The notes below the pieces were generated by a model. The model was not told the DNA's origin. It did not search any database and saw nothing but the letters and a program-made list of their open reading frames with translations. 64,000 nt of DNA, taken from the NCBI RefSeq assembly GCF_013415325.1, contig NZ_JACBYE010000022.1, positions 1 to 64,000 on the forward strand. Reading direction: 5' to 3'. Below, one piece after another: positions 39,162 through 56,252 of the stretch (positions are counted from its first letter, which is position 1; every line of letters begins with the position of its first letter). This DNA comes from Sanguibacter inulinus. GTDB lineage: Bacteria; Actinomycetota; Actinomycetes; Actinomycetales; Cellulomonadaceae. A program made the position numbers and the translations under genes.

Positions 39162-40232
39162 TCAGCCGTGCGTACGGCGCAGCAGCTCGTCGACGACTCG
39201 CTCCGCCGCATGCCCGTCGCCGTACGGCGTCTCGTCGGTCGGCGTCGGCGCGGGCCGCTGGACGCCCGCGAGGATCTCCTCCGCGGTGATCGCCAGCACG
39301 TTCCACCCGAGGTCGACGGTCTCGACCCACTCGGTCTCCGTGCGGACCGTGGTGCACGGGACGCGCAGCAGGAAGGCCTCCTTCTGCAGGCCGCCCGAGT
39401 CGGTGACGACACCCGCGCTCGACATGGTCGCCGCGAGCAGCTCCGGGTAGGGGAGCGGGGCGTGCAGGCGGACCGAGCCGCCGGACCAGTCGATGCCGAA
39501 GGACTCGGAACGGGCCACGAGCCGCGGGTGCGCGAGCAGCACGACAGGCTTGTCGAGCGCCTTGAGGCTGCGCGCGATCTCCGCGAGACGCTCGGGGTCG
39601 TCGGTGCTCTCGGCGCGGTGGATCGTCGCGACGTAGTACTCGCCGGCCTCGACGCCGGCGCTCGCGAGCACCGAGGCAGGGGCACCGGTGAGCGAGTCGC
39701 GCACCGTGTGCAGGACGTCGGTCATCACGTCACCGACCACGATGGTCCGCTCGGCGAGACCTTCAGCGGCCAGGTGCTGGCGTGCGACCTCGGTCGGGGC
39801 CAGCAGCACGTCGGCGGCGTGGTCGGTCAGCACACGGTTGTGCTCTTCGGGCATCGCGCGGTTGAAAGACCTCAGCCCGGCCTCGAGGTGCGCGACGGGC
39901 AGGTGCATCTTCACGGCAGACAGCGTCCCGGCGAGCGTCGAGTTGGTGTCTCCGTAGACGAGCACCCAGTCGGGGCGTGCCTCCTCGAGCACGGCGTCCA
40001 TCGCCGAGAGGATCGCACCCGTCTGCTGGCCGTGCGAGCCCGACCCGGCGCCGAGGTGCACGTCAGGTGCCGGGATGCCGAGGTCCGTGAAGAACACGTC
40101 CGAGAGCATGGGGTCGTAGTGCTGACCGGTGTGCACGATCACGTGCTCCACGCCGCGCGCGGCCGCAGCGTGCGCGATCGGGGCGAGCTTGACGAACTGC
40201 GGACGGGCACCGACGACGGAGAGGATCTTCAC
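39162..40232 (-). CDS. wecB: UDP-N-acetylglucosamine 2-epimerase (non-hydrolysing), WecB/WbpI-like
   Basis: Cytoplasmic epimerase of 356 residues: VVGARPQFVKLAPI at the start, VHTGQHYDPMLSDVFF, VYGDTNSTLAG, HLEAGLRSFNR, PEEHNRVLTDH and DSGGLQKEA. It interconverts UDP-GlcNAc and UDP-ManNAc or, if WbpI-like, UDP-GlcNAc3NAcA and UDP-ManNAc3NAcA. A nucleotide-sugar dehydrogenase gene lies 2.6 kb away, and the WbpD-E-B-type trio at 25963-28669 makes the second reading attractive. It is divergent from the next glycosyltransferase gene across 93 bases. A distinct second 2-epimerase (CapG type) is encoded at 55113. Confidence 0.9.
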   Translation of the reverse strand: MKILSVVGARPQFVKLAPIAHAAAARGVEHVIVHTGQHYDPMLSDVFFTDLGIPAPDVHLGAGSGSHGQQTGAILSAMDAVLEEARPDWVLVYGDTNSTLAGTLSAVKMHLPVAHLEAGLRSFNRAMPEEHNRVLTDHAADVLLAPTEVARQHLAAEGLAERTIVVGDVMTDVLHTVRDSLTGAPASVLASAGVEAGEYYVATIHRAESTDDPERLAEIARSLKALDKPVVLLAHPRLVARSESFGIDWSGGSVRLHAPLPYPELLAATMSSAGVVTDSGGLQKEAFLLRVPCTTVRTETEWVETVDLGWNVLAITAEEILAGVQRPAPTPTDETPYGDGHAAERVVDELLRRTHG

Positions 40233-45917: not shown

Positions 45918-48014
45918 GTGACCGACCCCGCTGCCACTGCCCAGCGTCCAGAGGCCCGCGCAGGCCGTGAGAAGCCAGGCTTCCGAGCGGACATCGAAGG
46001 CCTGCGGGCCGTCGCGATAGTCCTCGTCGCGGTCTACCACGTCTGGGTCGGGCGGGTCTCCGGCGGTGTCGACGTGTTCCTCATGGTGTCGGGGTTCTTC
46101 GTCGGTGCGTCTGTCGTCCGGTCGTACGCGCAACGACGGCCACCCTCGCTCCTGCCGTACTACCGCCGCGTGCTCGGACGGCTCGTCCCACCTGCGGCGA
46201 TCGTCCTGGTAGCCGTCGTCGTGAGCACCTGGCTGGTGCTCCCGAGGACACGCATGTCCGACACGGCCGAGCAGGCCCTCGCCTCCTTGTTCTACGTCGA
46301 GAACTGGTACCTGGCGACGACCGGCCAGGCCTACGGTGCGGCGGACGTCTCGCAGAGCATGACGCAGCACTTCTGGTCGTTGTCCGTCCAGGGGCAGATC
46401 TTCCTCGCGCTGCCGCTCGTGCTCCTCGTGCTGACCCTCGTGCTCGGCCGCAGGGCGACCCCCAAGGTCTACCTCGGTGTCGTCATCGGGCTCTTCGCCC
46501 TGTCCTTCGCGTACGCGGCCTACATCACTGCGGTCGACCAGGCCTCTGCCTACTACGACACCGGAGCACGGCTCTGGGAGTACCTGGCGGGGACGCTCCT
46601 CGCCTTCGTGATCGTCACCCGTCCCGTCCGGGACATGGCCTTCTGGCTCCGGTCCGTCCTCTCGGCGGCCGGGCTCACGCTCATCGTCGCCACGGGTGTG
46701 CTGGTCGATGGTGGGGCGGTGTTCCCCGGGCCTCTGACCTTGCTCCCGCTGCTCGGGGCGGCAGGCATCATCCTCGGCGGCGCAGGAGAGCGACCTACGG
46801 CTGTCGGCGCCGTCCTGTCGTCGCGCCCGCTCGTGACCGCCGGGGCGTATGCCTACCACTTCTACCTCTGGCACTGGCCCGTGCTCGTGCTGGTCGTCGC
46901 TCTGCGCGACGGGCGGTCTCCGGGCTGGTTGGCCGGGGCAGGTGTTCTCGTGCTCTCTGCGGCGCTGGCCTGGGCGACTCGGGAAGGCCTCTCCTGGCGG
47001 GCGAGGGGTCCAGAGGGCCGAGGTGTCCCGCAGGGCGCTGGTGGGCGCCGCAGGTGGAGGCCTGCCCGACTCACCACGGCCCTCGTCGTTGGCACGGCGA
47101 GCTTCGTCTTCGTCGTCGGCGCTGCCGGGGGTTGGTTGGCGCACATGGCGGCCGAGCGCCGTGCCGTTCTCGGAGGAGGCACGATCGACGCGCAGGTGTA
47201 CCCGGGCGCCCTGACGAGGCTCGACCCCGTGCTCTGGCCGACCGAGGCTGACGTCGCGCCGTTCCCCGACGCTGTCGTCGCGCGGGAGGACTGGCCAGCC
47301 AGCGATCGAGAAGGGTGTGCCGCAGGGCCCGACGAGAGCAGGCTCTTCTCGTGCACCTTCGGCAGCGAGGGCGGTGCGCTCTCCGTCGCTCTCGTCGGAG
47401 GGTCGCACTCCGTGAACTTCCTGCCCGCCGTCGACGCCGTCGCAGCAGCACGAGACGTCGAGGTCCAGACGTACTTCAAGCAGGGCTGCCCCGTGCAGTT
47501 CTTCGGCGAGGACGACGACCGAGAGGAAGAGTCCTCCTGCGATGTCTGGTCGCGCAAGGTGGTCCAGGAGGTGATCGACTCGGGCGTCGATGCCGTGATG
47601 CTCACGGGAACCCGTCCGGTGGCGGGGGACGCGGACGGCGACGAGGTCCCGGTCTCCTACCGGGCTGCCTGGGACGAGCTGTTCGACAACGAGGTCATGG
47701 TCATAGCGATCCGCGACAACCCCTGGTTGCCCTTCGACGGAGCCGAGTGCGTCGAAGCAGACGGAGCCACCGAGTGCACGGTCCCGAGAGACGAGGTGCT
47801 GTCGACGCCCGACCCGCTCAGCGAGCTCGCCGAGAGCATCGACCTCCTCTACGCCCTAGACCTCAGCGACTCCTTCTGCGACGACCTCACCTGCTACACC
47901 GTGATCGGGAACGTCCAGGCGTACATCGACAGCAACCACCTGACCGCGACCTTCGGACGCACGCTCTCGACACCGCTCGACGAGACGTGGGGGAGGGCTA
48001 CGGGGTGGTGGTGA
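45918..48014 (+). CDS. OafA-type O-acyltransferase with C-terminal SGNH domain
   Basis: Membrane protein of 698 residues. The N-terminal acyltransferase_3 domain starts FRADIEGLRAVAIVLVAVYH, with the family's conserved Arg and His, and spans about ten helices. After a final helix (residues about 385-405) an extracellular SGNH domain follows: LVGGSHSVNFLP holds the nucleophile Ser block and DSNHLT the catalytic Asp/His near the C terminus. Together they pass acetyl groups from cytosolic acetyl-CoA to an exported polysaccharide, like OafB-type proteins. GTG at 45918 is chosen at the start of homology; the frame is open upstream but overlaps the glycosyltransferase gene. Confidence 0.9.
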   Translation: MTDPAATAQRPEARAGREKPGFRADIEGLRAVAIVLVAVYHVWVGRVSGGVDVFLMVSGFFVGASVVRSYAQRRPPSLLPYYRRVLGRLVPPAAIVLVAVVVSTWLVLPRTRMSDTAEQALASLFYVENWYLATTGQAYGAADVSQSMTQHFWSLSVQGQIFLALPLVLLVLTLVLGRRATPKVYLGVVIGLFALSFAYAAYITAVDQASAYYDTGARLWEYLAGTLLAFVIVTRPVRDMAFWLRSVLSAAGLTLIVATGVLVDGGAVFPGPLTLLPLLGAAGIILGGAGERPTAVGAVLSSRPLVTAGAYAYHFYLWHWPVLVLVVALRDGRSPGWLAGAGVLVLSAALAWATREGLSWRARGPEGRGVPQGAGGRRRWRPARLTTALVVGTASFVFVVGAAGGWLAHMAAERRAVLGGGTIDAQVYPGALTRLDPVLWPTEADVAPFPDAVVAREDWPASDREGCAAGPDESRLFSCTFGSEGGALSVALVGGSHSVNFLPAVDAVAAARDVEVQTYFKQGCPVQFFGEDDDREEESSCDVWSRKVVQEVIDSGVDAVMLTGTRPVAGDADGDEVPVSYRAAWDELFDNEVMVIAIRDNPWLPFDGAECVEADGATECTVPRDEVLSTPDPLSELAESIDLLYALDLSDSFCDDLTCYTVIGNVQAYIDSNHLTATFGRTLSTPLDETWGRATGWW

Positions 48015-48139
48015 GAGACCTCTGGACCAACGAAGAACGTCCTCGGGGCAGAGCCGACAGTGCGCCGGCACACCATCGCGTAGGATCGGCAAATTGCCGG
48101 CAGAGGACTCGTCGGTCGAGCAGATCAGGAGGAAATGCG

Positions 48140-48210
48140 ATGGAAGGACCGTGGACGGTATGAGAGACCTGCGCGTCGGCACTGAGTTCTCAGTGCGTCG
48201 TGAACGGTGA
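48140..48210 (+). promoter_or_regulatory. Two tiny coupled ORFs leading into the polymerase gene
   Basis: A perfect AGGAGG (48127-48132) precedes ATG 48140, which opens a 7-codon ORF (MEGPWTV). Its stop overlaps ATG 48160 (ATGA), opening a 16-codon ORF (MRDLRVGTEFSVRRER). That stop in turn overlaps the GTG start of the polymerase gene at 48207 (GTGA). The polymerase start has no ribosome site of its own, so it is probably reached by ribosomes passed along this chain. TAGGAT at 48081 could be the -10 element of this unit. Confidence 0.6.
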
Positions 48211-49499
48211 GCCTGAGTCGACCGGGCCTGGCCGAGCGCGCCCGACACGTGGGACCGCGCCGCGACACGACTCGCAGCATCCGCCAGCCCGCAGATACAG
48301 GATCATTACGCGGATGGGTGTGGTCCTCGCTCGTGGCGATCGGGTTCTTCCTTCTCTCGCATCCTCGCGAGCTGTTCCCGAGTCTCACAGAATCACTCTG
48401 GCGGCTGGCCGCTCTGAGCCTCGTGGTCGTGGTTCTCGATCTCCGACGTGTGAAGTTCCCTGCGGTTCCGTGGACCGTCGCAGCCTTCCTGGGGATCTGT
48501 CTTGCGAGCGCGCTCTGGTCCGTAGAACCGTCGGACACGCTTCGGGCAGTGCGTCTGTACTGCTTGATCGCCGTCTTCGCCTGCCTGGCGGTGGCGAACT
48601 CGACGGTGCAGACTCTCGTCCGTGGGATCGTGTGGGGTGCCCTCCTCGTGGCGGGAGCGACCTTCTGGACGTTGTGGTTGCAGGAGACGGGGGCGCAGGT
48701 GCCGAATGCCGCAACCCCGGTGGCAGGTTTCCACGGCAATCGGAACGTGATCTCGTACACGTTGGTCCTAGGGATCTGCGCTCTCCTCTGCTTCCAGGCA
48801 AGGGGGCTCTTTGCGCGGGTCCGGTGGACGATGGCATTCGCGTCGATGGTCTTCCTGCTCCTGACGACCCGGTCCGGGACGGGCATCGTCGCGGCCGTCG
48901 TCCTACCTGTCGCGGCCGTGATGCTGACCGCCGCACGGCGATGGGACCCCTTCGGGAGCAAGTGGGCGAAGATGGCGGCATACGCTGTCGTGGTCGCCTC
49001 CGCCGCGGCGGCGCTTGCGACGCTTAGCAGCGTGGCCGCGCTGCTCGGGAGGCGATCAGATCTTTCGGGGCGAGGACCGCTGTGGGACGCCATCGTGGAG
49101 GTCTGGTCGCAGTCGCCCTGGGGAGGCTATGGCTTCGGTGCCGTGTGGAGCTACTCCTGGTTCTCCGCCAGCCCAAGCGCCGTGAAGGCGCAGATCGACC
49201 AGCTGTCAGGGCAGAGGCTCGCGCACGGCCACAGCATCTTGTTCGACCTTCTTCCTCAGCTCGGAGTGCTGGGAGTCGTCGCCGTGGTCGCCATCTTCGC
49301 CCTGTCAGGTCGGTGGATCTTCACACCCGTGGACGACACTGAGTACAGCGCGGCGAGGTGGGGGTTGCTGGGTGTGCTCGGTGTGGCCCTATCCGGCTTC
49401 ACCGAGCCGATGCTCGCCGTGCCGGTCGGGTGGTTCGTCGTGGTCTCGGCGGCGGCGGCCACCCAACGCATCGGCCGACGCAGAGCCGTCGGCGGCTGA
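48207..49499 (+). CDS. O-antigen ligase/polymerase family membrane protein (Wzy-like)
   Basis: Integral membrane protein of 430 residues with about eleven hydrophobic helices. The Wzy_C/WaaL-type region is recognisable by SGRGPLWDAIVEVW, the large outer loop, and GHSILFDLLPQLGVLG. It would polymerise or ligate lipid-linked repeats outside the membrane. GTG at 48207 lacks a Shine-Dalgarno site and overlaps the stop of a 16-codon ORF, part of a chain of short ORFs beginning with a perfect AGGAGG. The N-terminal 35 residues are hydrophilic. Base composition is visibly more A/T-containing than in the neighbouring glycosyltransferase genes. Confidence 0.85.
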   Translation: MSLSRPGLAERARHVGPRRDTTRSIRQPADTGSLRGWVWSSLVAIGFFLLSHPRELFPSLTESLWRLAALSLVVVVLDLRRVKFPAVPWTVAAFLGICLASALWSVEPSDTLRAVRLYCLIAVFACLAVANSTVQTLVRGIVWGALLVAGATFWTLWLQETGAQVPNAATPVAGFHGNRNVISYTLVLGICALLCFQARGLFARVRWTMAFASMVFLLLTTRSGTGIVAAVVLPVAAVMLTAARRWDPFGSKWAKMAAYAVVVASAAAALATLSSVAALLGRRSDLSGRGPLWDAIVEVWSQSPWGGYGFGAVWSYSWFSASPSAVKAQIDQLSGQRLAHGHSILFDLLPQLGVLGVVAVVAIFALSGRWIFTPVDDTEYSAARWGLLGVLGVALSGFTEPMLAVPVGWFVVVSAAAATQRIGRRRAVGG

Positions 49500-49546
49500 G
49501 TGGACCTCGGCTCGCGCTCCCGTGCAGCCGGGCGAGAAAACTGCCC

Positions 49547-50437
49547 TCACCAGCCGGAGAAGAGCCTGTACAGGCGGGACCTCAGGGCGTGGACACGCGG
49601 ACCGCTGGACGAGAAGGCCCGAAGCCTCTCCACGAGCGGTGCCGATCCGAGGCGGAGGATTGCCAGGCCTCGTCCGTCGACGCGCAGAGCCTCCAGCTGT
49701 TCGCGGACACGGAATCGCTGCTCTTCTTCGCGGCTGAGCGAAAATCTGGAACTTTCGCGGATGAGCCGATACGGGAGCATGCGCCGGTGCAAGGATTGAG
49801 TCATCTTGTCGAACGGGAGATGGCGAGGGTTCGAGTTGTGAGCATGAATCCGATAGTTGAGGACCACATGCCCTGAAGAGCGGACCGTCTGAGCCAGATG
49901 ATCGATCACTAGGGCGATCCAGATATCCTCTGCTACCAGGCTCTCGTCGATGGGGAAGACGCTGTCGGCCAGTTCTCGGCGCATGATGACGGTGCCCCCC
50001 GAGCGGTTCCCGGTGTCCTTTCGCGGAAGGACCATGCCGTCGAATTTGGGATTGGTCGAGAAGGTCTTGAGCCTGAAGAACGCGGCATCGGCCGGGGTTC
50101 CCTCGGCCGCGCCGTCGAGGACGTCGAGCCGGTGCTCCAGCGAGTCTGGCGGTACGATGTCGTCCCCTCCGAGGAGCACCACAGCCCCCCCCGAGCTCTC
50201 GGCGTACGCACGGTTGAAGGCTCCGACCTTCCCGAGTTTCTCTCCCTCGGCGATGATGACCACCCGCGGGTCCGAACCCGCTGCCGCTCGCGCTCGCGCC
50301 ACGGTGTCGTCCGTCGAGCCGTCGTCCACTATGACGAGCTCGAGGTCCTCGTGCGTCTGAGCGAGGACACTGGCGATCATGTCTGCCACGTAGAGCGACT
50401 CGTTATAGACAGCGGTGAGGATGGAGATGGTGGTCAT
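49547..50437 (-). CDS. Family 2 glycosyltransferase
   Basis: GT-A enzyme of 296 residues: ISILTAVYNESLYVADMI, VIVDDGSTDDTV, KLGKVGAFNRAYAES, and LLGGDDIVPPDSL, where GGDD takes the place of the DXD metal motif; VAEDIWIALVID is the acceptor-side acidic segment. The C terminus is basic and Arg-rich. The gene runs against its neighbours, starting at 50437 in a divergent arrangement with the flippase gene. Donor unknown. Confidence 0.85.
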   Translation of the reverse strand: MTTISILTAVYNESLYVADMIASVLAQTHEDLELVIVDDGSTDDTVARARAAAGSDPRVVIIAEGEKLGKVGAFNRAYAESSGGAVVLLGGDDIVPPDSLEHRLDVLDGAAEGTPADAAFFRLKTFSTNPKFDGMVLPRKDTGNRSGGTVIMRRELADSVFPIDESLVAEDIWIALVIDHLAQTVRSSGHVVLNYRIHAHNSNPRHLPFDKMTQSLHRRMLPYRLIRESSRFSLSREEEQRFRVREQLEALRVDGRGLAILRLGSAPLVERLRAFSSSGPRVHALRSRLYRLFSGW

Positions 50438-51004
50438 GGGCGATCGTCTGCTCTCTGCGAGTGTCTGGTCTGGACGTTTCGGCCCTGACAGAGACTACCC
50501 GAATCGGCGTCCAGCCCACGGCCCAGAAGGGCCCGGTTCCCGAGGACCGGGTCCACGGCGGCGGGTAGCGCCTTGTGCGATACTTCACCGCGGAAGGCTG
50601 CGGGTGGCAGACGGAGTGCTGGCGGGTCGGACTGTCCGCGGATCGGAGTGTGCGATCGACGACGGGCATCATTCCTCTGCTGCGACCCCGCGATGGACGG
50701 CCGCTCAGCGGTAGCCATGTGGCGTCGGATCCTGGCGGGGAACGAGCGGTATGGGCCGAAACCCTCGTGAACGCGCAGGTATCATTTTCACGTGCGCGGT
50801 GTCCGCGATCTTTACGGACCTTCAGTCGAGCGAGGCGAGGGTTCGCTGTCGGCAGGGTTTGTCAAAGCGCGGACGTGCCGCCAGAACTATTGTGGGAGAC
50901 GAGGGGCGTTGTGTATTTCGTGTTCATTGTAGATCTCGGGTGCGAGGAGTGACGGTCCTGGGTGAGAGCCCGTCGAGCGCGGCGGATGAGGAAGGCGGTG
51001 TCTC
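50438..51004. other. Intergenic stretch before the flippase gene
   Basis: This 567-base gap between the divergent glycosyltransferase and flippase genes contains several short ORFs (for example 50575-50952 and 50751-51008), but their predicted proteins are Arg/Cys-rich, mutually overlapping and match nothing I know. It is richer in A/T than the surroundings and ends with GAGGAAGG before the flippase GTG. Probably a promoter region plus decayed sequence. Confidence 0.5.
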
Positions 51005-52306
51005 GTGAAGCGAGCCGCAGTTGGGAAGAAGATCTCTGGCGTCGCTCGGGCGTCGCTCTCGATCACCGCTGGGGTGGGTGCAGGCCAGCTGATCCTCATT
51101 GCCATCTCTCCGGTCCTGACACGACTGTTCACTCCGCAAGAGTTCGGCCACTACACGATCCTGATATCTGTGATCGCCGTGATGTCAGTCGCGGCGACGC
51201 TCCGGTTCGAAGCTGCGATCCCACTGGCCATGACCGCCGAAGACGCTCTCGGGGTCGCGCGGGCCGGCGTCGCCTCGACGCTCTTCTTCTCCTTCCTCGT
51301 GATCCCGATTCTGATCGCGGTGGAGCTGGTCATCCCCTGGAAGCTCCTCCCGGACGGAGGCGGAGCGCAGCTCTGGGTCTTGGTTCCCGCTGTGATCGCG
51401 TTCGGGTTGTACGAGCTAGGTACTCAGTTTGCCATCCGGCGCCAACGGTATGGTGCCGTTGGAGCGAGAAGCTTGATCCAGAGTGGAGGGACTGCGCTGG
51501 GTCAGCTGAGTTTCGGTGTACTGGGTGTGGGGTCGGGCTTGATCTGGGGTCAGATTCTCGGGAAGCTGCTGGCAGTCGGGTTCCTCGCTCCACTCGTGCG
51601 TACTGAGTCGCGTGATCTCGGGCGGGTGCCAAAATTGCGGGAAATCTTCAAGAAGTACAAGCGCTTTCCGCTCTTTCTCGCGCCTTCCTCGTTGTTTAAC
51701 GTCCTGGGGACCCAGGCGCCCTATCTGATGATCGGCGCTGTCTTCGGCGCTCCGGCGATCGGCTTCTTGGGGCTGATCCAGCGCCTGGTTGCGGCACCCC
51801 AGGCGCTGGTGGGTCAGGCAATTGGACAGGTCTACGTGGGGGAGGCTGCTGCGCGCCTCCGGGGTGGCGCAGGGGACAGCCGCAGACCATTCGTGCGGGC
51901 GACGTCCTGGCTCGTCATCATTGCCTTGCCCATCGGTGTCGGGATGGCGTTGATTCCTGGATCTCTGCTCGGCGCCATCTTTGGCACCGAGTGGGAAGGC
52001 GCCTCTGCATATCTGAGTGCTTTCGCTCCGGCGTTCGTTGCGCAGTTCGTCGTCGCTCCGGTCTCTCAGACACTGATCATCGCCGGCCGTCAGCGGCTGC
52101 AGCTCATGTGGGACGTCTCACGGGTGATCATCGTTTCCTCCGCGATCATCGCTGTGCATGCCTACGGCGGCTCTGCTGTCGACGCAACGTGGGCCTTCAG
52201 CATCGCGTCGGTGATGTGCTATGGGGCCCTCTGGTTCCTCTGTCTGGCTGCCGCCTCCAGGCCCGTCGCCGACTCGTCAGAGGACGAACGACCACGGCAG
52301 AACTGA
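51005..52306 (+). CDS. wzx: Polysaccharide flippase, Wzx-like (MOP superfamily)
   Basis: Membrane protein of 433 residues with about twelve helices in the polysaccharide-transporter pattern: ASLSITAGVGAGQLILIAISPVLTRLFTPQEFG at the N terminus contains the typical 'TRLFTPEEFG'-like turn, and PLFLAPSSLFNVLG lies between the two halves. It would flip undecaprenyl-pyrophosphate-linked repeat units to the outer face. GTG at 51005 follows GAGGAAGG at a good distance. It is followed 158 bases later by a second Wzy-like gene, giving the usual wzx-wzy pairing. Confidence 0.88.
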   Translation: MKRAAVGKKISGVARASLSITAGVGAGQLILIAISPVLTRLFTPQEFGHYTILISVIAVMSVAATLRFEAAIPLAMTAEDALGVARAGVASTLFFSFLVIPILIAVELVIPWKLLPDGGGAQLWVLVPAVIAFGLYELGTQFAIRRQRYGAVGARSLIQSGGTALGQLSFGVLGVGSGLIWGQILGKLLAVGFLAPLVRTESRDLGRVPKLREIFKKYKRFPLFLAPSSLFNVLGTQAPYLMIGAVFGAPAIGFLGLIQRLVAAPQALVGQAIGQVYVGEAAARLRGGAGDSRRPFVRATSWLVIIALPIGVGMALIPGSLLGAIFGTEWEGASAYLSAFAPAFVAQFVVAPVSQTLIIAGRQRLQLMWDVSRVIIVSSAIIAVHAYGGSAVDATWAFSIASVMCYGALWFLCLAAASRPVADSSEDERPRQN

Positions 52307-52464
52307 GTAGCTCCGTCCTCGAGGTCGTCAGTCTGCAGGGTGTCGGCGTCGTGGTCGGACCCGGGATGTAGGGGCCGCCTGTCCGCAACCGCCTGCCTGC
52401 CGGGCTGGCTCGCACGGTGGCACCTTCTCGGCTGCCCTACAGTGGGTCCCGTACCATTGCCTCT

Positions 52465-53643
52465 ATGCGATCCATCCACCTACAGGCCTTGACGACGCGA
52501 GACCGGGTGCTTCGATCATTGGTGATCATTATCCTCCTGCTCGGAGGGTTGCTCCCAGAGTTCATGGGCCTCAATGTGGTCGTAGCGGCTGCGGTCGTGG
52601 CGGCGCCACTGGTGGTCTATGACCTGTGGCGCGCCTTGCCGAGGGTGCACGAGGTGATCTATATCGTCGTGCCTGTCTTCGGAATCTTCGCAGCGCATGC
52701 GATCTTCGTCGCTCCTGGCGCCGACTACGGTGTCGAGAAACTGCTGAAATTCGTCACTCTGACGTTGGCCACCGCCATGTCTGCATGCCTTCTGCGTGAC
52801 GAAGAGAGTGTCTCGATCTTCGCGAAGACGTGGGTGCTGTATTCTTCGTTGCTCTCCGTGATGGCTCTTTTCGAGTACAGCGGGAGCGGGCGGGCCGGCG
52901 GGTTCGACTCAAGTCCGATCTGGCTGGCTCGAGCCCTCGTAGCGGCCGCCCTGATGGTCCTCTGGTTCTGGCGGACGCGCGTCTACAGTCGGTGGGCTTG
53001 TATTCCTGTGATCGTGTTGCTGCTCGCGGGGGCTTTTGTGACGGGTTCGCGCGGACCTGTGCTCGGATTTGCGGTCGGTTGCGTGGTGCTGGCCTTCCTG
53101 GGGCGTTCGGGCAGGGGCTTTCGCCTGCTCCTGCTGTTCGGGGTCGCCGCAGTCGGCGTCGCGATGATGCGGCTCCTCCCGATCTTCTCGCAGAGCAGAC
53201 TGACTAATCCGGACTCGGCGAGCGCGTCCAACTACTACAGGCGTCTCCTCTGGGAGATCACACCCCCAGTAGTCGTCGAACATCCACTAGGGGTGGGTTT
53301 TGGCAACTGGGCCTCCGCTGCTGGTGCTCCAGAGCAGTACAGCTACCCCCACAGCCTTTTCCTGGAGATCGCCAGCGAGCTGGGCATTCCAATCACCATC
53401 GCGTTCGTCTGTCTGATCGCCTATGTGCTAATTTCGCTCTACCGGATTTCGGAGCTGAGCCGGGCCTCGATGCTGATAGTGGTTCTCTTATGCTCGGAAC
53501 TCGTCGCTGTCAACCTCTCGGGAGACCTCAACGCGAGAACGTTCTTCTTCCTTCTGACCTTGGGCTTCCTGGTGTCACGGTGGTACCGAAAGGGCAAGAA
53601 GGGCCTGGGGCGAGGAGAGCATGCCGCAGCTGTCGAGCCATAG
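52465..53643 (+). CDS. wzy: O-antigen polymerase/ligase family membrane protein (Wzy-like)
   Basis: Membrane protein of 392 residues with about ten helices; the Wzy_C region has NYYRRLLWEI, HPLGVGFGNW and YPHSLFLEIASELGIPI. It is unrelated at the motif level to the polymerase at 48207 except for this general family pattern. ATG at 52465 is chosen over GTG 52417 because TACCAT lies seven bases before it, suggesting a leaderless transcript, and because the added 16 residues are not membrane sequence. The 3' end abuts an ISL3 transposase remnant, only four bases away, but the protein ends in a natural basic tail. Confidence 0.83.
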   Translation: MRSIHLQALTTRDRVLRSLVIIILLLGGLLPEFMGLNVVVAAAVVAAPLVVYDLWRALPRVHEVIYIVVPVFGIFAAHAIFVAPGADYGVEKLLKFVTLTLATAMSACLLRDEESVSIFAKTWVLYSSLLSVMALFEYSGSGRAGGFDSSPIWLARALVAAALMVLWFWRTRVYSRWACIPVIVLLLAGAFVTGSRGPVLGFAVGCVVLAFLGRSGRGFRLLLLFGVAAVGVAMMRLLPIFSQSRLTNPDSASASNYYRRLLWEITPPVVVEHPLGVGFGNWASAAGAPEQYSYPHSLFLEIASELGIPITIAFVCLIAYVLISLYRISELSRASMLIVVLLCSELVAVNLSGDLNARTFFFLLTLGFLVSRWYRKGKKGLGRGEHAAAVEP

Positions 53644-53647
53644 GGGC

Positions 53648-54765
53648 TCATCGCAGGCCAGGGTGCAGTCGTGGTCTGAACCTTCCGGTCTCGAGCAGGC
53701 CTCTGGCGTTGTAGTTGGTCAGGTTGCGAAAGCCCAGAGCCGAGCCGCGTAGGTGTTCGAGTCGGCCGTTCATCGCTTCGGTGGGGCCGTTGCTAGTGCC
53801 GGGGCGGTCGAAGTAGGCCAGCACGCGCACGGCCCGCTTGGCCAGGGTTCGCACGAGTGTGCGGAGCCCGGTCAGCACGGCCGGGACGCCGGTGGTGACG
53901 GACTCGCTGAGGCTAGTCATGACCTGCTTTCCGCGGGTGCGGGTGCGGGTCGGGTTCACGGTAGGCGCTGATCATGCGCTGGTAGATGCCCCTGGTGGCC
54001 TCAACCTGGACGTGGTCCTCGGCTGCGAACAGCGTGGTCGGCCGCTGTCGCTGGCGGTCGGTGAGCAGGTCGTGGCCGGTGTGCAGTGTCCGCAGGGCGC
54101 GGTAGAGCGGGTCGCCGGCGCGGTCGCGGTGCCCGTTAAGGCCCTGCTGGTCCCGCTGGCAGTGGTCGAGAGCGTGGCCGGCGAGGCGGACCACGTGGAA
54201 TGGGTCCATGACCGCGACGGCGTCAGGTAGCTCCTCGGCGGTGGCGGTCTTGAAGCCCGAGAACCCATCCATGGCCACGACCTCGACGCCCTTGCGCCAG
54301 GCCTTGAAAGCCTGGTTGGAGCGACCTTCAACCAGGTCCGGCAGCCGTGAGGTTCCGGTCCGGTAGCGGATTGGGGTGAGGCCGATGACCACCGTGACAT
54401 GCGTGTCACCGCGGCGGGTGTGTCGCCAGGCGTGCTCGTCGACGCCGATCACCGCAACGCCGTCGAAGCGGTCCGGGCCCGTCGATGGGGACGCGTCGGC
54501 CCTCGTCCAGGACGGCGTCGTTGACGGTCTTCCAGGACACTCGCTAGGGCCTCTGCGAGCCGCGCGACCGTGAGGTGCTGGACCGCGAGGCCCTCCAGTG
54601 CCCACCGCATCGCCCGCCGGGACAGCCTCGCCCGGGGTCCGGCGGCGCGGCTGGTGTCCTGGCGGCGGACGTGCCCCTACCCCGGCGCACCGACACCGGC
54701 GGACTGTGACCAGCGGCGTCGCGGGTCGCCAGCCCAGCGGTTCGTGCGCCAGCCGTCAGGTCAAC
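53648..54765 (-). pseudogene. Decayed ISL3-family transposase
   Basis: The DDE transposase of an ISL3 insertion sequence can be followed piecewise in different frames: HEPLGWRP near 54750, RQDTSRAAGPRA and LAVQHLTVARLAEAL, then VIGVDEHAWRHTR, VVAMDGFSGFKTAT, VMDPFHVVRLAG, YFDRPGTSNGPTEAMNGRLEHLRG, and the family's C terminus FRPRLHPGLR. At least three frame breaks are visible: near 54690, near 54480, and in a short CCCGCA repeat at about 53935-53955. There are also in-frame deletions (for example after SNQAFKAW). No clear terminal repeats are found on the left. It is inactive. Confidence 0.85.
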
Positions 54766-55112: not shown

Positions 55113-56252
55113 CTATCCCTCGGTCCGGCGGATTCCAGCGCGCGTCTGATGCGTCGGAGCGGTCGAGAGGATGAAGTTGACCGTGCGCCGTGCTGAGTCG
55201 ACAACCTGGTAGTCGGCCGGGAGCGCAGGGCGACCTTGAGTAGACCACTGCTCGAGAGTCACATGAATCGCACTCAGGATCGACTGACGGCGGACCCCAG
55301 CGAGCACAATCGCTCCGGTGTCGATCGCCTCGGGGCGCTCGATGGCGTCCCTGAGAGTCACTGCCGGGAACCCGAGCATCGTCGACTCTTCGCTGATGGT
55401 GCCGCTGTCTGAGAGGACGCAGCGTGCCGAGAGCTGCAGCGCGTTGTAGTCATGGAAGCCCAAGGGGCGGTGGAAGATCACACCTGCGACCTCGGTGATC
55501 CCCAGGAGGTCGATGCGCTTCTGGGTCCGGGGGTGGGTGGAGAGCAGGACTGGGTGTTCGTAGTGCGTCGCTACCGCGGAGAGCGCTTCGATCGCTGCTG
55601 CGAGCCGTTCGGCGTCGTCGACGTTCTCCTCCCTGTGCAGGCTGGCGAGGAAGTACTTCTGCGGCTTGAGCCCGAGCCGCTCGACAGCGTCGCTGGAGTC
55701 GATCTGCCCTCGGTAGTGGCCGAGCACCTCGTTCATCGGTGACCCGATGTGCATGATCCGGCTCGGGTGCAGACCCTCCGCGAGGAGGTTGCGTCGAGAG
55801 TGCTCGCTGTAGACGAGGTTGTAGTCCGCGACGTGGTCCACCAGGTGACGGTTGATCTCTTCTGGGATGTTCGGGTCGAAGGACCTGTTGCCTGCCTCCA
55901 GGTGGTACACGGGGATCTTCATCCGTCGTGCCATGAGCGCGGCGATGCACGAGTTAGTGTCTCCGAGCACCACGACCGCGTCCGGCTGCTCCTCTCGGAG
56001 CACCTTCTCGGTGTACTTGAGGATGTCACCAAGGACTGCACCGAGGGACGAGGTGTCGGCGTTGAGGAAGTGGTCTGGGCGACGGAGGTCAAGGTCCTCG
56101 AAGAAGACCTCGTTGAGCTCGTAGTCGTAGTTCTGGCCCGTGTGCACGAGGACGTGCTCGGTGTGCTCCTCCAGCGCGGCGATGACGCGCGCAAGACGGA
56201 TGATCTCGGGACGGGTCCCGACGATAGTGACAACTTTCAGGCGGTCTCTCAC
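55113..56252 (-). CDS. capG: UDP-N-acetyl-sugar 2-epimerase, CapG/WbjD-like
   Basis: Non-hydrolysing 2-epimerase of 379 residues: VVTIVGTRPEIIRLARVI, VHTGQNYDYELNEVFF, VLGDTNSCIAALMARR, HLEAGNRSFDPNIPEE and DSGTISEESTMLG. It sits last in a capE-capF-capG run; there CapG converts the product of CapE/CapF to UDP-N-acetyl-L-fucosamine. The start is GTG at 56252, four bases after the capF stop, with GAGGAAG upstream inside capF. The frame is open further upstream but overlaps capF. It is distinct from the WecB-like protein at 39162. Confidence 0.92.
   Translation of the reverse strand: MRDRLKVVTIVGTRPEIIRLARVIAALEEHTEHVLVHTGQNYDYELNEVFFEDLDLRRPDHFLNADTSSLGAVLGDILKYTEKVLREEQPDAVVVLGDTNSCIAALMARRMKIPVYHLEAGNRSFDPNIPEEINRHLVDHVADYNLVYSEHSRRNLLAEGLHPSRIMHIGSPMNEVLGHYRGQIDSSDAVERLGLKPQKYFLASLHREENVDDAERLAAAIEALSAVATHYEHPVLLSTHPRTQKRIDLLGITEVAGVIFHRPLGFHDYNALQLSARCVLSDSGTISEESTMLGFPAVTLRDAIERPEAIDTGAIVLAGVRRQSILSAIHVTLEQWSTQGRPALPADYQVVDSARRTVNFILSTAPTHQTRAGIRRTEG

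Follow-up and report, generated by a model that had tools for sequence, protein, structure and literature searches.

A putative two-step ribosome landing pad of overlapping mini-ORFs ahead of a Wzy-like polymerase gene in Sanguibacter inulinus

We analyzed a window of 64,000 nucleotides from Sanguibacter inulinus (contig NZ_JACBYE010000022.1, positions 1 to 64,000), in which a pair of mini-ORFs precedes a Wzy_C polymerase gene. Judging from its sequence, and with moderate confidence, we interpret this pair as a lineage-specific ribosome landing pad that feeds the polymerase. The initial annotation had described a perfect AGGAGG ahead of a 7-codon ORF, four-base overlaps joining that ORF to a 16-codon ORF and the latter to the GTG of a Wzy-like gene, and the lack of a ribosome site for that gene. 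Each of these elements is present in the sequence (Table 1). The stop of mini-ORF 1 and the start of mini-ORF 2 share ATGA, and the stop of mini-ORF 2 and the polymerase start share GTGA. Upstream of GTG 48207, where the sequence reads CTCAGTGCGTCGTGAACG, no SD-like word lies at a useful distance. The downstream gene matches Pfam PF04932 (Wzy_C) with an E value of 3.6e-13 and 50 bits, against a gathering score of 31.7.

Landing pads are characterized by an upstream ORF that has an SD and a properly spaced start of its own, by a stop located approximately −4 to +3 nt from the next start, and by a downstream gene that lacks its own SD. Here, ATG 48140 stands 7 nt past AGGAGG, both junctions are at −4, and the polymerase gene is without an SD. 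A second ATG (48135) lies 2 nt past AGGAGG, and the 16-codon ORF that it opens stops at 48185 and is uncoupled.

Table 1. Positions in the window of the polymerase gene, its leader and the preceding gene
Feature	Position	Strand	Remarks
Preceding gene, acyltransferase-3 + SGNH protein	45918-48014	+	Native to the genus
−10 promoter element, TAGGAT	48081-48086	+	Predicted transcription start about 48091-48094
Near-perfect palindrome, CGGCAAATTGCCG	48087-48099		Straddles predicted transcription start
Perfect Shine-Dalgarno (SD), AGGAGG	48127-48132	+	Spacer AAATGCG, 7 nt, then ATG 48140
Mini-ORF 1, 7 codons, MEGPWTV	48140-48163	+	SD-led; TGA stop 48161-48163
Mini-ORF 2, 16 codons, MRDLRVGTEFSVRRER	48160-48210	+	Without own SD; ATG 48160, TGA 48208-48210
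Hairpin GCACUGA-GUUC-UCAGUGC, 7-bp stem	48179-48196	+	Inside mini-ORF 2; ends about 10 nt before polymerase GTG
Wzy_C (O-antigen ligase/polymerase-like) membrane protein, 430 aa	48207-49499	+	GTG start without SD

In the proposed relay, the transcript would begin near 48093 and the ribosome would enter at AGGAGG. After translating 7 codons, it would terminate at the UGA within AUGA and reinitiate one base back. The next 16 codons would be read through the hairpin, which the ribosome would melt, and termination at the UGA within GUGA would then be followed by reinitiation at the SD-less polymerase GUG. We infer both the translation of the mini-ORFs and the reinitiation from this arrangement. 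The two peptides would be throw-away products without function of their own; codon use is non-coding-like in both mini-ORFs, as expected of such peptides. Two hops in series would cause a loss of efficiency, which counts against the relay.

The promoter was assigned by reference to the genome's own start regions. TANNNT hexamers, of which TAGGNT is a frequent form, peak 6 to 8 nt upstream of start codons (113 of 1,184 genes). This spike is the signature of leaderless transcripts and identifies the −10 element of the genome. In leadered genes, TANNNT forms a hump at about 34 to 62 nt. TAGGAT fits the −10 element and stands 53 nt from the first ATG (48140). Transcription is therefore predicted from near 48093, at an ordinary leader distance to AGGAGG and ATG 48140. 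Together with its flanking bases, this hexamer can be aligned to the homologous leader in a congener, designated G002, and none of 1000 shuffles gave an alignment as good. The only sizeable ORF on the predicted transcript is the polymerase gene.

Two other features near the predicted start were considered. The palindrome CGGCAAATTGCCG could be an operator placed over it. Nothing points to an operator shared across the genome, however: a second exact copy of the palindrome does not occur there, and matches with two mismatches are at control level. A leaderless start at TTG 48094, 7 nt past TAGGAT and opening a 38-codon ORF that ends at the polymerase start, was rejected because TTG never occurs among the leaderless-type starts of this genome, which are ATG (61) or GTG (52). 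Note that TANNNT occurs exactly 6 to 8 nt before ATG or GTG in about 10% of called genes in a 1.45-Mb sample, and leaderless transcripts thus appear to be abundant in this genome.

To estimate base rates, a simple home-made caller based on codon use and SDs was applied to 1.45 Mb of this genome and gave 1,200 genes. NTGA is found at the start of 570 of these genes. Considering ORFs of up to 60 codons, one or more mini-ORFs with a four-base overlap precede 350 genes, and a two-link chain precedes 80. Under a stricter definition (ORFs of up to 40 codons within 150 nt upstream; 1,183 genes), one-link genes number 307 compared with 254 in dinucleotide shuffles, and two-link genes 50 compared with 34 expected from the shuffles. 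The polymerase gene is the only one of the 1,183 whose two-link chain is led by a 6-base SD (1 observed, 0.27 expected). When the SD-led ATG and the GTGA at the polymerase start were held fixed and the 64 intervening nt were shuffled, the same two-hop relay arose in 22% of shuffles. The number of links is uninformative because frame arithmetic permits only two (or five) hops over 64 nt. Mini-ORFs ending on a gene start make up 15 of 23 SD-led and 413 of 867 SD-less cases (p = 0.14), giving no sign that such relays are favored genome-wide. Due to their frequency in the gene sample and in the shuffles, the overlaps are not evidence of selection. The informative parts are the SD and the promoter.

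These base rates bear directly on whether the chain is incidental. In that case, which we regard as doubtful, the polymerase would be initiated directly at GTG 48207 (or farther inside the gene, at GTG 48318) without an SD, and the AGGAGG-led ORF would be a remnant whose translation has no consequence. Two-link chains of −4 overlaps precede 4-7% of genes here, 22% of the shuffles regenerate the relay, and an SD is missing from many genes in the genome: 394 of 1,200 called starts are SD-less, a number that in part reflects leaderless or miscalled genes. Consequently, GTG 48207 may not need a relay. GTG 48318, moreover, aligns with an ATG of G002. However, an incidental chain leaves a strong SD and a promoter with no other gene to serve, and the hairpin is located where 30S subunits initiating at GTG 48207 would land. 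This hairpin has a folding energy of −10.8 kcal/mol (local z −2.8), and a perfect stem of at least 7 bp within the 40 nt upstream is found at only 21 of 1,184 starts. The variant using GTG 48318 also has to accommodate the residues just before it, which resemble those of G002 (G..RG); coding therefore probably begins farther upstream.

Homologues of the polymerase were sought in 222 genomes of the family, six of which gave a match, that of the window included. A close homologue (51% identity) is present in only one genome, G002, of the same genus, where it follows a glycosyltransferase gene with no acyltransferase gene between. The stretch from promoter to SD aligns with that of G002 (0 of 1000 shuffles as good), and for the part between the −10 element and the SD (48087-48133) 8 of 1000 shuffles were as good; AGGAGG aligns with GGAG. 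A GTG located 7 nt behind this GGAG (position 1387 of the L003 reverse complement) is in frame with a polymerase ORF of 448 aa. The SD-proximal start of G002 is thus already in frame with the polymerase, and a relay is unnecessary there. Within 1343-1465 of the L003 reverse complement, that polymerase ORF also contains an internal ATGA (1462) with which out-of-frame mini-ORFs overlap through their stop; given the base rates, this is probably due to chance. More distant polymerase homologues (33-34% identity) occur in G182 and G180, where TAGGAT-7 nt-ATG and TAACAT-6 nt-GTG, respectively, stand directly at in-frame polymerase starts that look leaderless.

The promoter and SD are thus shared with G002 and probably ancestral, and the relay is probably lineage-specific. 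Conservation of both overlaps in relatives, suggested as a check by the initial annotation, is absent from the three with a readable polymerase start (G002, G180 and G182). The relay motif, allowing up to 3 mismatches, was not found in the other five congeners, and conservation of the mini-ORF peptides was not detectable in the comparison with G002. Plasmids yielded no nucleotide relatives. A protein search with the polymerase returned no named relatives, and one with the acyltransferase returned Antribacter, Cellulosimicrobium and Microbacterium at 40-47% identity. Neither the shuffles nor the comparison with G002, G180 and G182 give any sign of selection for the relay. The mechanism does not need conservation, so this only lowers confidence in it.

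How the landing pad could have arisen is suggested by the comparison with G002. In the ancestral state, the polymerase start was probably served directly by this promoter and SD, a situation seen in G002. The N-terminal stretch, which is not conserved, would then have changed so that the SD-led start fell out of frame, and overlaps of a type that chance makes common in this GC-rich genome would hold the ribosome on course to the polymerase. The SD-led start and the first membrane helix lie 178 nt apart here and 165 nt apart in G002. The net one-base shift is consistent with an origin through frame drift, with the caveat that the stretch is not alignable. We infer this evolutionary order with little firmness, because it draws on one congener only and because the two leaders cannot be aligned past the start codon. 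More tentatively still, frame drift between the ancestral SD and start and a fast-evolving polymerase may have made a two-step relay that is now obligatory for expression, with coupling rescuing the shifted N-terminus.

The same one-base difference in length, together with the in-frame SD-proximal start of G002, would be explained if the 5′ end of the polymerase gene were broken, that is, if indels (real or assembly errors) had shifted an N-terminus once continuous from ATG 48140 and thereby impaired expression. We consider this improbable. At least two independent indels would be required, because ATG 48140 opens a frame that closes at 48161 and the polymerase frame does not open until past 48203, and the gene body is intact over 430 codons. 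A single indel or assembly error is excluded by this frame arithmetic.

The initial annotation had offered the chain as a translational relay or a leader-peptide attenuator. The relay is plausible, given the promoter, the SD, the −4 overlaps, the SD-less polymerase start and the hairpin inside mini-ORF 2. The attenuator reading is not supported. A regulated switch acting by leader-peptide attenuation or stalling, with an amino acid or stress as its signal and the level of polymerase as its output, would make use of the two leader peptides, and Arg accounts for 5 of the 16 residues of the second peptide, with one Trp in the first. However, neither MEGPWTV nor MRDLRVGTEFSVRRER contains a regulatory codon run, no terminator was found within 48000-48207, and there is no space for one between the consecutive ORFs because they overlap; attenuation has been argued to need about 40 bp or more (PMC4833913). 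Folding of the whole leader gave no more structure than in shuffles, a search of Rfam gave no family at gathering score (a single chance-level match, E 0.82, fell below its gathering score), and the chain of overlaps is not conserved in the relatives compared. We therefore consider such a switch very improbable. The further suggestion, that chain length is set through the level of polymerase, is speculative, with nothing seen in its support.

The role of the polymerase itself is uncertain, given a second Wzy_C gene in the cluster (52417-53643). Several features of the neighborhood were also recorded. Across 48207-53643, G+C is 63-66%, down from about 71%, and codon use is unlike that of the genome; this segment includes a GT2 gene, a flippase-like gene and the second Wzy_C gene, and has the appearance of a polysaccharide island that was acquired or is evolving fast. 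A piece of an ISL3-type transposase (53913-54605) follows the second Wzy_C gene. Two UDP-GlcNAc 2-epimerase-family genes on the minus strand (39162-40232 and 55113-56252) flank the polysaccharide cluster. In another genome, G003, a homologue of the acyltransferase gene (67-73% DNA identity) is followed instead by a UDP-GlcNAc 2-epimerase-like gene.

A direct actinobacterial precedent counts in favor of the landing pad. PPE2 of M. tuberculosis has no SD, is preceded by a uORF that is SD-led, out of frame and joined to it by an AUGA overlap, and depends on translation of that uORF, for which a termination-reinitiation landing pad has been proposed (PMC11260477). The uPPE2-PPE2 system differs in having one uORF rather than two, in lying behind a B12 riboswitch, and in having been proven by reporters. 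The −4 spacing is among the most efficient for coupling, and some uORFs solely deliver ribosomes (PMC12548453). Leader genes of the ribosome-feeding kind, short unannotated ORFs that would raise initiation of the next gene through reinitiation, are proposed to occur frequently among Actinobacteria; that survey counted non-overlapping leaders only and found a peak at 10-11 bp spacing (PMC4833913). E. coli iraD likewise has a short uORF translationally coupled to the downstream gene, but CsrA represses iraD via this uORF (PMC5574718), and no such regulator is indicated for the polymerase. Gene pairs overlapping by −4 nt (PMC6728339; PMC12548453) share ATGA/GTGA junctions and termination-reinitiation, but join full-length genes, whereas here two mini-ORFs stand in series. 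The arrangement is plausibly a known, ordinary kind of translational coupling.

Mini-ORF overlaps of the ATGA/GTGA type are too common in such genomes to serve on their own as evidence of regulation. If the relay works, a GC-rich genome, in which TGA stops often fall on NTG starts, would tolerate upstream frame drift by handing the ribosome over at short overlaps. Such a relay would also help to account for the many actinobacterial starts that appear to lack an SD.
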